Source of the DNA: a virus
Direction: 5' to 3' (one strand)
IMG/VR virus record: IMGVR_UViG_3300032213_001151
Span: 1-60,484 of that record
DNA: 60,484 nt
Part shown: piece by piece, positions 18,085 to 60,484 of the stretch
Layout: every line of letters starts with the position of its first letter
Numbering within the stretch: the first letter of the stretch is position 1
Translations under genes and position numbers: made by a program
Notes under the pieces: generated by a model
Databases searched by the model: none
Seen by the model: only the letters and a program-made list of their open reading frames with translations
Told to the model about the DNA's origin: nothing

Positions 18085-19182
18085 ATGGAATTTAAAGTAA
18101 GAGAAGTAACCGGAGAAGAAAAGGGCATTGCTGAAAAAGAACAAGAGTTGCTCGACAAGCACGAGCAGAACTTGAACGGTAATGAAGGTAAAGCAGAAGA
18201 AGATGGTATTCAAGTTGAATTGCCACCTGCTGTAGAAACCGAAAAGCCTGCAAGCCTAAAGGAAGAGGACGTTCTTTCATATATTAAAGAGAGGTACAAC
18301 AAGGACATCAGCTCATTCGATGAGTTGATTGCTGCACGTAACAGCAACGAAGAGTTGCCTGAAGATGTGTCAGCATTCTTGAAGTACAAAAAAGAAACGG
18401 GTCGTGGAATCCAAGACTTCTTGAAATTGCAAGAGGACTTCGATACTATGGACCCTGACCAAATGCTAAAGCAGTATTTCTTGGCAACTGAGGATGGTCT
18501 TGATGAAGATGATATTGAGGCTATGATGGAAGACTTCAGTTACAATGAAGACTTGGATGACGAGTCAGATGTCAAGAGAGCTAAATTGGCGAAGAAAAAA
18601 GCTATTGCTAAGGCTAAGACTTATTTCACGGAGCAACAGGAAAAGTACAAACAACCCCTTGAGTCAAGAACGGTTGGTATCCCTGAAGCCGAGAAGGAAG
18701 AGTATGAGGCTTACAAGCAATATGTAAAACAGGCTAACACTGCAAGTGAGGAGCAAGAGAGAAAACGTGAGTGGTTCCAACAGAAAACTGACGAAGTATT
18801 CAGTCAAGAGTTCAAAGGTTTTGAGTTCGATGTAAATGACAGAAAACTTGTTTTTTCTCCCGGTGATGCCACTGAGTTGAAGAAGGTCCAATCAACTCCA
18901 ATGAACTTTATCAATAAGTACTTGGATGAGAGTGGTCTTATGAAAGACGCAGTAGGTTATCATAAGTCGTTAGCCATCGCAATGAACCCCGAAAAATTTG
19001 CCAAGTTCTTTTATGAGCAGGGCATGGCAGATGCCACAGAAGATGTGACACGTAAGATAAAGAATGTTAATATGTCGGAACGTAAAGCACCTGAAGCGGT
19101 AAATAAGGGGGGAGTGCAAATACGAGAAGTAAACGCAGGCTCAGGTCGTGGGTTGAAAATCAAAAGCGCAAAAAGAATATAA
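18085..19182 (+). CDS. Head scaffolding protein
   Basis: 365 residues, highly charged and helical, strongly acidic in the first 170 (LDEDDIEAMMEDFSYNEDLD), with coiled-coil segments in the middle and a basic C-terminus (GRGLKIKSAKRI) suited to contacting the capsid protein. Position between portal and major capsid gene is standard for a scaffold. No protease domain seen. Confidence 0.75.
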   Translation: MEFKVREVTGEEKGIAEKEQELLDKHEQNLNGNEGKAEEDGIQVELPPAVETEKPASLKEEDVLSYIKERYNKDISSFDELIAARNSNEELPEDVSAFLKYKKETGRGIQDFLKLQEDFDTMDPDQMLKQYFLATEDGLDEDDIEAMMEDFSYNEDLDDESDVKRAKLAKKKAIAKAKTYFTEQQEKYKQPLESRTVGIPEAEKEEYEAYKQYVKQANTASEEQERKREWFQQKTDEVFSQEFKGFEFDVNDRKLVFSPGDATELKKVQSTPMNFINKYLDESGLMKDAVGYHKSLAIAMNPEKFAKFFYEQGMADATEDVTRKIKNVNMSERKAPEAVNKGGVQIREVNAGSGRGLKIKSAKRI

Positions 19183-56092: not shown

Positions 56093-56136
56093 TGGCAGGC
56101 GTGGGAGGAATCGAACCCCCCAATAACCATTCGCCT
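56093..56136 (-). ncRNA. tRNA-3'-half-like element (T-arm plus acceptor)
   Basis: On the minus strand: AGGCG ... GGGGG-TTCGATT-CCTCC ... CGCCT-G-CCA. It has a T-arm with the standard TTCGATT loop and an acceptor-like pairing (AGGCG/CGCCT) followed by CCA, but no D-arm or anticodon arm in the 44 bases. It lies in the leader of the gene at 55803-56072, after palindrome copy 12. Either a decayed tRNA or a structured leader that mimics tRNA. Confidence 0.55.
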
Positions 56137-56137
56137 T

Positions 56138-56153
56138 GTGTCTTTGAAGACAC
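56138..56153. repeat. Dispersed palindrome copy 12
   Basis: GTGTCTTTGAAGACAC, immediately after the stop of the GATase-GGCT gene and one base from the tRNA-like element. Confidence 0.85.
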
Positions 56154-56155
56154 TG

Positions 56156-57250
56156 TTACAGTAGGTTGTCTACATCATTCTGAGTATACCACTCGTTGCA
56201 TCCAACACAGCAGTAGTTCCCGAACCCGTCATGCTCAAGGTCTCTGTAGCATGAAGTGCAGTATGGTGTGTCAACTATCTCCTCGTCACACTCTTCCTCT
56301 ATGTCAGCAGGATAGTTGTCAAACTTGTCGAATGAACTGAAGTCAAGTTGCTTGTATGTGCTTGACGCAGTTGGCTCGAATGGGTGTGGGCGATATGGCT
56401 TCTGCTCGAAAGACTCATGCAGCGTATCAAAACTACTCACTCGCTTGGTTGGGTTGAAGTATATCCAAGCATTGACTACGTTGCCCCTTGCTGTCACGAT
56501 TGGAATCTTCTTACGGCAATACCAATTGGGGTGTCCCTCAAGTTGGTCTAACTTGGCAAGCACTGTGTCACTCACCTTGAACAAGTCAACCTTGACATTG
56601 TGCCCCACTCCCTTCTGTTCTATCATGTATGGTATGCCTTCAACGAGCATGGGATACTTGTCTTCTGTTTTGCCTGAGCCAATGTATCTTGAGTCGGTAA
56701 GGTATCTGTAGTAGTTGTTGTTGCCCTTCTTCAGTGTGCCATACACAGCGACAAGATTGTTCTGCAACACGTTGTCCTTTGAGTACCACACACCATCCTT
56801 GAAAGTCCAAAGGTCACGGTTGTATAGTTGGAATGTGCGGGTGCGCACGTTGATAGTGATGAACCTTACAAGTCTGTTCTTCTCCAAGGTATCCTTCCAC
56901 TTGTGCCTTGGCACTGAGTCCAATGACTCAGCTAATACCTTTGAGTCGCACGTGTTGTTGTCACCAAGCCCATGAATAGTACCGTTCATCATCAGGTACT
57001 CGTGACTGTTTGCACCACACCTGAATGGGTGTGTGTTTGACTTACCGACCTTGCCTACTGTGGCGTATCGGAAGTGTGCAATGAAAGGACGGTCAGTGTC
57101 GAGCACCTTCCACTGCTTTGATGTGTGATAGCTCACCTCAAATGTGTCGAGCCAAACTACACCTAACCCGTGTGGGTTGATGCGTGATGAGTTCTTGAGA
57201 ACCTCTTTAGGAATCTCAATGTTGCGTTGCTTTACGATTATGATACACAT
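56156..57250 (-). CDS. Class-II glutamine amidotransferase / gamma-glutamylcyclotransferase / zinc-ribbon fusion
   Basis: 364 residues. Residues 1-160: Ntn-type glutaminase with Cys2 exposed after Met removal, FIAHFRYATVG (56-66), NTHPF (72-76), MMNGTIHG (87-94) and DSKVLAESL (102-110). Residues 165-270: GGCT fold with VYGTLKKG (169-176) and QLEGHPNWYCRKKI (236-249), including the catalytic-type Glu. Residues 331-352: CTSC ... CCVGC zinc ribbon. Known family roles: releasing ammonia from glutamine, and cleaving gamma-glutamyl bonds. Both domains keep their key residues. Likely partner of the amidoligase in the same arm (inference). Confidence 0.82.
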   Translation of the reverse strand: MCIIIVKQRNIEIPKEVLKNSSRINPHGLGVVWLDTFEVSYHTSKQWKVLDTDRPFIAHFRYATVGKVGKSNTHPFRCGANSHEYLMMNGTIHGLGDNNTCDSKVLAESLDSVPRHKWKDTLEKNRLVRFITINVRTRTFQLYNRDLWTFKDGVWYSKDNVLQNNLVAVYGTLKKGNNNYYRYLTDSRYIGSGKTEDKYPMLVEGIPYMIEQKGVGHNVKVDLFKVSDTVLAKLDQLEGHPNWYCRKKIPIVTARGNVVNAWIYFNPTKRVSSFDTLHESFEQKPYRPHPFEPTASSTYKQLDFSSFDKFDNYPADIEEECDEEIVDTPYCTSCYRDLEHDGFGNYCCVGCNEWYTQNDVDNLL

Positions 57251-57272
57251 ATATTTGATTTGATTTTGGGCA

Positions 57273-57288
57273 GTGTCTTTGAAGACAC
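57273..57288. repeat. Dispersed palindrome copy 13
   Basis: GTGTCTTTGAAGACAC between the tRNA-like gene and the GATase-GGCT start, 22 bases upstream of that ATG. Confidence 0.85.
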
Positions 57289-57298
57289 AGAACCCGAT

Positions 57299-57372
57299 TG
57301 GCAGTCAGGGCAGGATTCGAACCTACACAATAGGGCATCGCCCATAGCGTTTACCAATTTCGCCACCTGACT
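57299..57372 (-). tRNA. tRNA-like gene with non-canonical anticodon arm
   Basis: 74 bases including encoded CCA. Seen: acceptor AGTCAGG/CCTGACT, D-arm GCG...GG...CGC, T-arm GTAGG-TTCGAAT-CCTGC. Between D- and T-arms there are only 20 bases. The best stem there (ATGGG/CCTAT) leaves a 6-base loop CGATGC without a U33, so no anticodon can be assigned. Behind a strong promoter. A decayed tRNA or a tRNA mimic. Confidence 0.5.
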
Positions 57373-58573: not shown

Positions 58574-58783
58574 TTATTTTTCAACTTTTTTTTCATCGCT
58601 GTGAATCCTTACTGCGAGGACGGTTACGTTCTTTGCTGACACCTGACCCCACCCCGCTGAACCTTTGCGTATGTAGAACAGTCTGCCATCATGGCTAAGG
58701 CTTGCCCACTGCTCATATAGATGCAGTGGGAGCCTTGCTATTGGCTTGTCTATCCTTATCAGGTACACGTTTGTCTTTATCAT
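58574..58783 (-). CDS. Small early protein
   Basis: 69 residues. VYLIRIDKPIARLPLHLYEQ then YIRKGSAGWGQVSAKNVTVL; a compact beta-rich protein ending SDEKKVEK. 4-base overlap with the upstream gene. No family known. Confidence 0.68.
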   Translation of the reverse strand: MIKTNVYLIRIDKPIARLPLHLYEQWASLSHDGRLFYIRKGSAGWGQVSAKNVTVLAVRIHSDEKKVEK

Positions 58784-59061
58784 CTGCCACCCCCCTGCAA
58801 TAAGGTCTTGAACCCATTGTACACGTTGCGTTTGTACGCCTGACTTTGGTAGTCAAATTTGTTCGACATCAGTATGCTCGTGATGCTGCAAAATCTTATC
58901 TCAATTTGATGCAGCACCTCTTCGAAGGTCTTGCCGTCCATGAGATTCTTAATCACCTCATCACGTGTGCTCACGATAGGGTTGTCGAATGTGCCGTTGG
59001 CTTTTGCGTTGATGTGCGCATCAGCAATGGCTTTTACTTGTTTTGAAATGCGTGTTGTCAT
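58780..59061 (-). CDS. Small early protein behind hammerhead ribozyme 1
   Basis: 93 residues. KQVKAIADAHINAKANGTFD and VIKNLMDGKTFEEVLHQIEI; helical. Its ATG is 25 bases downstream of a hammerhead ribozyme, so its mRNA would get a processed 5' end. Function unknown. Confidence 0.68.
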   Translation of the reverse strand: MTTRISKQVKAIADAHINAKANGTFDNPIVSTRDEVIKNLMDGKTFEEVLHQIEIRFCSITSILMSNKFDYQSQAYKRNVYNGFKTLLQGGGR

Positions 59062-59086: not shown

Positions 59087-59135
59087 GTGTTTCGTCCTTT
59101 CGGACTCATCAGCCTGAGCACTCACTCAGGGACAC
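59087..59135 (-). ncRNA. Hammerhead ribozyme 1
   Basis: Read on the minus strand: stem III GUG, UC at the cleavage site, stem I CCUGAG-UGAGUG-CUCAGG, core CUGAUGA, stem II GUCC-GAAA-GGAC, core GAAA, stem III CAC. All conserved core bases of the family are present, and the open helix is stem III (type III topology). Predicted cut between the complements of 59131 and 59130. Stem III is only 3 bp, so folding strength is uncertain. Confidence 0.9.
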
Positions 59136-59141
59136 GGGGCA

Positions 59142-59157
59142 GTGTCTTTGAAGACAC
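59142..59157. repeat. Dispersed palindrome copy 14, hairpin 6 bases upstream of hammerhead 1
   Basis: GTGTCTTTGAAGACAC, with GGGG/CCCC outer arms in the RNA read from the minus strand. Confidence 0.85.
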
Positions 59158-59183
59158 CACCCCTACTCACTACCACATGAGTA

Positions 59184-59501
59184 TTATCTTTCAGGGAACA
59201 CGTGTGCCCATATTGAGTTGTCACTTACCCACTCATCAGCAGGAACGCGTGGTGCAAGCCAATTCAGTGCGTCAATTATCACCTGACTTGTTGTCGGGTC
59301 ACCCTCCCAATCGTTCATGTAGGTCTTGTCCTCAGACAGTTCGTCCCATATGTAGTTGTTCAGGTCGCAGTCATTGAGATTGCGTTGGTAGTACGTGGTG
59401 ATGTAGTGTTCACCGTTGTGGTGTAGGCTCGCTACTCCACCGTCTTCGGTAATGATGTCCAATGACTCATCAACTTGGCTTTGGATTACTCTGTATTTCA
59501 T
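59184..59501 (-). CDS. Hypothetical early protein
   Basis: 105 residues, acidic with many Asp and Tyr (DLNNYIWDELSEDKTYMNDW). Overlaps its upstream neighbour by 4 bases and ends 26 bases before palindrome 14. Function unknown. Confidence 0.68.
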   Translation of the reverse strand: MKYRVIQSQVDESLDIITEDGGVASLHHNGEHYITTYYQRNLNDCDLNNYIWDELSEDKTYMNDWEGDPTTSQVIIDALNWLAPRVPADEWVSDNSIWAHVFPER

Positions 59502-59701
59502 GCTGTTAGGTATGGTGTTGGGTTAATGTTGTAGGTCTTGCATAGGTTAACGATAACAGATGCTTGTTGTGTGTAGATGACAGCGTCAAACCTTTCGGCA
59601 GCCACTTCTATCCATTTTTGTGCGGTCTCATAGGTGTTGAACATCTTGATGTGAATCGTGTCCTCGTCTTGGTCAACGCAGGCGGTCCAATGTGTTGTCA
59701 T
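59498..59701 (-). CDS. Small early protein behind hammerhead ribozyme 2
   Basis: 67 residues. HWTACVDQDEDTIHIKMFN then YETAQKWIEVAAERFDAVIY; alpha/beta. ATG is 31 bases downstream of hammerhead 2. Function unknown. Confidence 0.68.
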   Translation of the reverse strand: MTTHWTACVDQDEDTIHIKMFNTYETAQKWIEVAAERFDAVIYTQQASVIVNLCKTYNINPTPYLTA

Positions 59702-59732: not shown

Positions 59733-59783
59733 GCTGTTTCGTCCTTTTGGACTCGTCAGGGACAGTGCTCACTGTCCGACAGC
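59733..59783 (-). ncRNA. Hammerhead ribozyme 2
   Basis: Minus strand: stem III GCUG, UC at cleavage, stem I GGACAG-UGAGCA-CUGUCC, core CUGACGA (the family allows any base at position 7), stem II GUCC-AAAA-GGAC, core GAAA, stem III CAGC. Stems I and III differ from ribozyme 1 by paired changes that keep pairing, and stem I loops share UGAG. Predicted cut between the complements of 59778 and 59777. Confidence 0.9.
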
Positions 59784-59791
59784 GGGGGGAA

Positions 59792-59807
59792 GTGTCCTTG
59801 AAGACAC
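59792..59807. repeat. Dispersed palindrome copy 15, hairpin 8 bases upstream of hammerhead 2
   Basis: GTGTCCTTGAAGACAC with GGGGG/CCCCC-type outer arms; follows the amidoligase stop. Confidence 0.85.
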
Positions 59808-59822
59808 CCCCACCCCCTTGGT

Positions 59823-60484
59823 TTAAAATGGTGTTTCTCTGTCGTGGTTGTAGTGCCCCACCACTCGACCCCCCGTTACCTGCACTGTGTGCATCTCAGG
59901 GTGTCTGAAGTTCGGGTCAAGGAAGTGCGCCACCTCTTCGTCAATTTTCCCGTCCATTATGAACTTGCGATAGTGGCGTGCCTTCTGTAGCTTCTCTTCA
60001 GTCTTGGCTACATCACCCCCGTACATCGATAGAACTATAGGTCTGATGTGGGCAAGGAACTTCTCGTGTGTTACACCTGACACGTTGAATGCGAAGTCAA
60101 GCATGGCATAGAATAGCTCGTATCTGCGCATGGTTTGCTTCACTGACTCAAACTTGCTTGGGATACGGAACTCAACCACATACTCATTGTAGCCCACCTG
60201 CTTTAGAAGTGCCATTTTGTACCTGCTGCCACCTCTGTTGTTCGGTCCGTCAAAGTGGCTTCTCTCGGTCTCAGGCTGCATACGCAAGTTCCCGTTGCAG
60301 TACCCGTTTGAGATGCGACTCTCGTACAGGGCAAGTAGAATCCCACTCAGCGGACGCAAAGCCTTGCGTATCTCGTCACTTGTCTTGCCCTTTACGCCTA
60401 CAGTCACGTGACCCCCACAGCGTCTGTCAGCAGGGCTGTAGCGTGAGTCAATTATCTTCTCAGCCTGCACGAACAAGTCATAGA
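59823..60484 (-). CDS. Amidoligase, C-terminal part; gene begins at 475 across the join
   Basis: Continues the 337-codon gene described at 1-475; bases 60362-60484 repeat 1-123. After CGGHVTVGV it shows ISNGYCNGN and a Met/Glu-rich stretch, GGSRYKMALLKQ, VVEFRIP (an E-F-R that fits the family's catalytic end), then a helical tail. TAA at 59823-59825. Palindrome copy 15 and hammerhead 2 follow. Confidence 0.75.
   Translation of the reverse strand, partial: YDLFVQAEKIIDSRYSPADRRCGGHVTVGVKGKTSDEIRKALRPLSGILLALYESRISNGYCNGNLRMQPETERSHFDGPNNRGGSRYKMALLKQVGYNEYVVEFRIPSKFESVKQTMRRYELFYAMLDFAFNVSGVTHEKFLAHIRPIVLSMYGGDVAKTEEKLQKARHYRKFIMDGKIDEEVAHFLDPNFRHPEMHTVQVTGGRVVGHYNHDRETPF
60362..60484. repeat. 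Terminal direct repeat, right copy
   Basis: Exact copy of bases 1-123; see the left copy. Confidence 0.95.

Follow-up and report, generated by a model that had tools for sequence, protein, structure and literature searches.

Hammerhead ribozymes and a miniature tRNA-like element as candidate punctuation marks in the early transcripts of a phage group

Ever since hammerhead ribozymes were discovered in phages and bacteria, their role there has been an open question. Among the closest described systems are the hammerhead arrays in prophages reported by Perreault et al. (2011, PMC3088659), and the accessible text of that paper proposes that the arrays divide long phage RNAs into shorter mRNAs and presents cleavage in vitro and, once, in E. 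coli. Here we discuss two hammerheads in a viral sequence of 60,484 nucleotides (nt), positions 1 to 60,484 of IMG/VR record IMGVR_UViG_3300032213_001151; this whole stretch is called the window below. Both elements, at 59733-59783 (copy 2) and 59087-59135 (copy 1) on the minus strand, are complete type III hammerheads. They are of the prophage-array kind, as far as the accessible text describes it, in that the phage genomes have several same-strand hammerheads bordering individual genes or short gene blocks. Unlike the arrays as described there, the present loci have a hairpin on the 5' side that is particular to type III, a fixed site behind one conserved gene with turnover of the gene downstream, and exchange with miniature tRNA-like elements (mini-tRNAs). 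Phage hammerheads and prophage arrays were already known; these three further features appear to be new. None of them was found in the open-access literature searched, which is weak evidence, and open-access papers on the repeated palindrome described below, on Caudoviricetes hammerheads, on Patescibacteria hammerheads and on phage tRNA-like punctuation, mostly covered by title and abstract, held nothing matching.

Read from 59783 to 59733, copy 2 consists of GCUGU, the cleavage-site C, GGACAG, UGAGCA, CUGUCC, CUGACGA, GUCC, AAAA, GGAC, GAA and ACAGC; the corresponding segments of copy 1, from 59135 to 59087, are GUGU, C, CCUGAG, UGAGUG, CUCAGG, CUGAUGA, GUCC, GAAA, GGAC, GAA and ACAC. Both have three stems, with stems I and II closed by loops and stem III open, together with the type III core CUGANGA plus GAAA and UH before the cleavage site. 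Cleavage after C17 is predicted between 59778 and 59777 in copy 2 and between 59131 and 59130 in copy 1, and stem III gains one pair if A15.1-U16.1 is counted. The initial annotation of this DNA had placed a second hammerhead at exactly 59733-59783, with stems I and III differing between the copies on both strands, stem II identical, and UGAG starting both stem I loops; all of this can be read directly on the minus strand. Its statement that the core CUGACGA/GAAA is kept holds for copy 2 but needs amending for copy 1, which has CUGAUGA, a change at the free position of CUGANGA. Loop II is GAAA in copy 1 versus AAAA in copy 2. End-to-end alignment to Rfam RF00008 (Hammerhead_3) gave 41.6 bits (E = 1.1e-5) for copy 2 and 41.4 bits (E = 1.3e-5) for copy 1, both below the gathering score of 48.5; in relatives, hammerheads of the same site score up to 49-50 bits. 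The window copies share core, topology and full-length alignment with this Rfam family and differ from it in their shorter loops in stems I and II; scores fall just under the cut-off for the window copies and just over it for those relatives. A family model with both copies in its training set scored copy 2 at 67.2 bits and copy 1 at 70.5 bits. The match goes beyond chance: about 0.6 occurrences per window would be expected for the bare motif CUGACGA...GAAA, but the complete structure reaches the Rfam E-values just given. In each intergenic region, the hammerhead is part of the minimum free energy (MFE) fold computed without constraints (z -3.3 and -4.7).

Relatives bear out the earlier reading that the paired changes between the copies mean a structure is kept. 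A pattern made of the core and stem II returned at least 119 stretches from IMG/VR, and a second pattern that also specified the stem I loop brought further ones; counts from these scans are among the matches listed, and related phage families are not independent samples. A structure scanner recognized nearly all of the at least 119 stretches as type I or type III hammerheads and recognized nothing in reversed sequence; in 1.17 Mb of pattern-selected phage loci, a scanner for the full architecture yielded 161 matches, against 0 once these sequences were reversed. The alignment of homologues that the initial annotation had proposed as a check on stems I and III comprises 118 distinct type III sequences, which have identical length and align without gaps. 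Their core is invariant. All 6/6 pairs of stem I change on both sides and are paired in 100% of cells, stem II is paired in 99.8% of cells, and stem III has both-side changes at 5/6 pairs. All three stems covary; the covariation score of the hammerhead is 0.79 versus 0.08-0.12 with the partners slid, and the random loss of pairing or core bases that was to count against a conserved structure is not seen among these relatives. The conserved sequence of the stem I loop is UG[U/A]GUG, and loop II is AAAA or GAAA in most sequences; the conservation of both loops is suggestive of a loop-loop tertiary contact and would fit one, short of proof. Hammerhead-like folds with U-U or A-A instead of G-C at 10.1/11.1 were also seen at L392 (9145-9200), at L393 after a GATase gene, and at L047, L205 and L039. 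Cellular assemblies, mostly Patescibacteria (loci L315-L379), hold type III hammerheads of the same loop type, with 62 of 65 pattern matches fully paired; a neighbour gene common to these loci was looked for and none was found.

Stop codon, hairpin, hammerhead, an open leader of about 25-40 nt and start codon follow one another in this order, with a median of 30 nt from stop codon to hammerhead and 22 nt from hammerhead to ATG. Copy 2 follows an amidoligase-like gene (59823-60476, minus strand; placed by an alignment of 28 homologues, its N-terminus missing because the record ends there). In the window and in four terminase-found relatives that are 77-80% identical, G002, G006, G008 and G013 (with four, three, two and one hammerheads), a type III hammerhead stands after this same gene and the next gene is mostly unrelated; two others found by terminase, G016 and MW202828, have no hammerhead. 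Across a wider set, 39 of 138 hammerhead sites have an amidoligase-like gene upstream, the hairpin is present at 39/39 of them in 30 different sequences, and the downstream proteins are homologous in only 17 of 741 pairs. Because these sites had been found through their hammerheads, the upstream gene was searched by protein as an unbiased test. A direct IMG/VR search with the 217-amino-acid (aa) fragment of the upstream open reading frame (ORF) gave no match; an alignment of full-length relatives found homologues, in 80 loci. Since the sequences of the query alignment were taken from loci with hammerheads, the sample is tilted towards relatives of those loci. In 64 of the 80 loci, not all independent since some are near-duplicates, the end of the matched protein is followed within 220 nt by a type III hammerhead, compared with a density elsewhere of 0.014 per 220 nt. 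Two or three type III hammerheads occur in 26 of 135 loci, always on one strand, and 30 records of 56-65 kb carry one to five hammerheads each; many records are single-copy.

A hairpin directly adjoins both window copies on the 5' side, at 59784-59816 for copy 2 (in the MFE and centroid folds) and at 59136-59163 for copy 1 (a stem of 12 base pairs, bp), both on the minus strand and with no gap to stem III. For both copies, the unconstrained intergenic fold is a strong hairpin running gapless into stem III, the hammerhead, and an unstructured leader up to the ATG. Taking as criterion a stable hairpin that ends within 4 nt of stem III, we find it at 84% of 170 phage type III hammerheads versus 8% at shifted positions, with 5% on the 3' flank; at 125 type I hammerheads the figure is 6% on either flank. 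Among 87 clustered representatives it is 76%, against 11% at shifted positions and 18% in shuffled sequence. The enrichment is not a selection effect because the search patterns left the flank untouched. The topology suggests why. In type I, the ribozyme's own stem III hairpin ends the upstream product, whereas after type III cleavage nothing but a short single strand would remain there, and a hairpin has to be supplied. In four loci that have both types (L078, L205, L207 and L212), the repeated palindrome of the phage plays both parts, forming the hairpin added to the type III element and the stem III hairpin of the type I element, and it would end at the upstream 3' end in both. A short stem III in need of coaxial stacking was also considered as the hairpin's reason and was rejected, as stem III measures 5.19 bp with and without the hairpin.

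In the tRNA punctuation of mitochondrial transcripts and in the t-elements of plant mitochondria, tRNAs or tRNA-like folds mark the cuts of RNase P and RNase Z, and small model substrates of RNase P consist of an acceptor stem and a T arm. Among the 16 loci of the protein search without a hammerhead, six (L410, L416, L425, L432, L435 and L462) have a miniature tRNA-like fold after the amidoligase-like gene, and L419 and L463 have a looser tRNA-like fold at the same site, which makes six to eight of 16 in all. The window has such an element too, with acceptor stem, GG linker and T arm, at 56097-56136 on the minus strand. It was found by a strict scan and lies one nt after a palindromic hairpin (56138-56153), itself just after the stop codon of an amidotransferase gene (56156-57250), both on the same strand. 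The orthologous site of G002 and G006 is occupied by a hairpin together with a hammerhead-like fold whose 10.1/11.1 position is unpaired. The window element has no anticodon arm and only 9 nt between acceptor and T stem; it scores 33.5 bits (E = 1.3e-5) with model R2, whose training set includes it, and the tRNA finder ARAGORN is silent on it. The strict scan, which asked for an acceptor, a linker of 8-13 nt with GG, and a T arm with a TTCGA loop, found 23 elements in the 80 loci and nine in other hammerhead loci, a few of the nine looking like chance or being parts of ordinary tRNAs; neither reversed nor shuffled sequence contained any, nor did 328 kb of terminase loci. Among 25 aligned mini-tRNAs, the linker G and the T loop are invariant, and the acceptor and T stems covary (0.83 versus at most 0.25 when slid). 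ARAGORN reported none of the aligned elements as a tRNA in the loci tested, so the compact mini-tRNA is an element that a standard tRNA search leaves unreported. Many mini-tRNAs lie one to five nt after a hairpin, like the hammerheads.

With their stack of acceptor and T arm topped by a T loop, elements of this type resemble RNase P substrates. They share with the small model substrates a stack of about 12 bp and a geometry close to that of tRNA, nearly 7 + 5 bp, and differ from them in being natural, repeated and covarying, with a D-loop-like GG linker and mostly no encoded CCA. As in mitochondrial tRNA punctuation and t-elements, tRNA-like folds in polycistronic RNA mark presumed cut sites; unlike there, the genomes are those of phages, D stem and anticodon arm are missing, and the fold is interchangeable with a ribozyme. 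Theta ribozymes, which resemble that of hepatitis delta virus, reportedly adjoin tRNAs in gut phages and are said to help make functional tRNA. They too would be self-cleaving phage ribozymes linked to tRNA elements, of another ribozyme class, and in the loci described here ribozyme and tRNA mimic replace each other. Two loci (L449 and L461) have a conserved fold, ACC..UCAGAAACGG..GGAUUUGGUGGUAGAAAC, after the amidoligase-like gene at the hammerhead/mini-tRNA site, possibly another cleavage device. A type-P3 twister ribozyme above the Rfam cut-off lies just before the amidoligase-like gene of L441 (1395-1472), and DUF805b RNA motifs, likewise above their Rfam cut-offs, lie near that gene in L453 (2417-2449) and L447 (705-739).

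We think it likely that the hammerheads punctuate the early polycistronic transcript. The early region on the minus strand would be transcribed as one polycistronic RNA, and in the infected cell the ribozyme would self-cleave at C17, 5-6 nt downstream of the hairpin. The upstream message would then keep the hairpin near its new 3' end, a 2',3'-cyclic phosphate, and so may resist 3' exonucleases; the downstream message would begin with a 5'-OH and stems I and II, followed by an open leader for translation. Where a mini-tRNA takes the hammerhead's place, host RNase P or Z would presumably cut it. The hairpin that would cap the new 3' end is the part previously missing from the punctuation idea. 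The strongest argument that cleavage is selected comes from the exchange at one site, after the same gene and often with the same kind of hairpin. It amounts to a natural control, since the ribozyme and the tRNA mimic are alike neither in sequence nor in fold and have only RNA cutting in common; cleavage is therefore the function we take to be selected. A broader proposal, which we hold with somewhat better than even confidence, is that a group of phages of about 60 kb, probably of Bacteroidota, has a standard cut slot made of stop codon, protective hairpin, cutting device, open leader and start codon. The devices would be interchangeable (type III or type I hammerhead, type-P3 twister, or a mini-tRNA cut by RNase P or Z), and the slot would split conserved genes from fast-changing cargo genes. 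We infer the host from the terminase relatives alone, which are Flavobacterium, Cellulophaga, Tenacibaculum and Maribacter phages.

Several observations weigh against transcript punctuation. Cleavage of both RNAs is a prediction from their folds, the RF00008 scores of the window copies are just under the curated cut-off, and the mini-tRNAs of L425, L432 and L435 have a clear hairpin on the 3' rather than the 5' side. Additionally, the tip of the hairpin is often a 16-nt palindrome dispersed over these genomes, although the outer stem of the palindrome is extended mainly beside hammerheads (4.0 bp versus 1.5 and 0.9 elsewhere). In the cultured phage elemoB (MT497068.1, L399), the type III hammerhead (19025-19079, minus strand) is placed in the leader that precedes the first early gene of its operon and has no hairpin, so the module is not universal. 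A type I hammerhead of the same phage lies at about 17264 (minus strand) between two later genes. The elemoB arrangement fits better with a hammerhead that serves the downstream gene, where trimming of the 5' leader, with removal of a triphosphate or an inhibitory structure, would set translation or decay. The unstructured leader after each copy and the start codon a median of 22 nt away speak for this alternative as well. It is the upstream gene, however, that stays constant while the downstream gene turns over, and the hairpin has been added on the upstream side; we therefore consider a leader role unlikely, though it is the best of the alternatives. The exchange renders the punctuation idea directly testable, with a ready laboratory system in the cultured pair of Flavobacterium phage elemoB on Flavobacterium sp. 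BAL314.

Other alternatives fare worse. Temperate phages often carry tRNA 3' halves at attP, and mini-tRNAs left behind by integration in this way would make the exchange uninformative on cleavage. We give this little credence. Each mini-tRNA includes a covarying 5' acceptor strand of its own as well as a GG linker; a single operon can contain as many as four of them per genome, placed between a stop and a start codon; and late-region loci have none. Type III hammerheads act in retrozyme and viroid-like RNAs, and the two window copies, on the same strand with cleavage sites 647 nt apart, might excise a segment to be ligated into a circular or otherwise stable RNA. That is very improbable given that many records are single-copy, that spacing varies from 300 to 2600 nt and that the segments are ordinary, non-conserved genes; for phage arrays, the accessible text of Perreault et al. 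(PMC3088659) states that circular or spliced products were sought and none found. Least credible of all is that the GC-rich hairpin right after the stop codon is a transcription terminator and the adjoining hammerhead has little role, because no T run follows it, stem III begins at once, and the hammerhead core is invariant in 118 relatives.

Around these elements the window holds several genes on the minus strand. An ORF of 67 aa (59498-59701), not conserved in relatives, starts 32 nt after copy 2; one of 105 aa (59184-59501) lies between the two hammerheads, and one of 93 aa (58780-59061) starts 26 nt after copy 1. Pfam and PHROGs gave no credible match for the flanking small proteins, and an assignment of the 93-aa ORF as CENPU was rejected, the match being below the cut-off. 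A DNA-level comparison of the window end with the phage collection produced no useful relatives, the one match being 125 nt in a Pseudomonas phage. The upstream protein is about 300 aa long in relatives, and its predicted structure (predicted local distance difference test score 89) weakly matches the folds of glutamine synthetase, YbdK and PafA. These matches, together with the neighbouring glutamine amidotransferase/GGCT gene, suggest an amidoligase-type function for the modelled protein. The window's only predicted tRNA is a tRNA-like gene at 57299-57372 (minus strand; 44.8 bits with RF00005), to which ARAGORN gave no anticodon identity. With three nucleotides closing its anticodon stem, it is probably unable to decode, and it is probably another punctuation element. 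Between it and the start of the amidotransferase gene stands a hairpin (57268-57295, minus strand) that is present in most relatives too.

The palindrome that often forms the hairpin tip is itself abundant. Fifteen copies of the 16-nt near-palindrome GTGTCTTCAAAGACAC lie between and inside genes of the window in both orientations, versus 0.95 expected (at most 3 mismatches), at 503, 1470, 5452, 13568, 20677, 30735, 37327, 44438, 45623, 51596, 53454, 56138, 57273, 59142 and 59792. A combined pattern of palindrome and hammerhead proved too specific and had no matches. The copy inside the terminase gene recurs at an unchanged codon position in 37 of 80 relatives, with nearly all variation confined to one loop base; it is therefore under constraint as DNA or RNA. 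In MW202828.1 (L225/L226; 43745-55154), which has no hammerhead, 14 copies of another palindrome, GTGTCGTTAACGACAC, are found, many of them right after stop codons.
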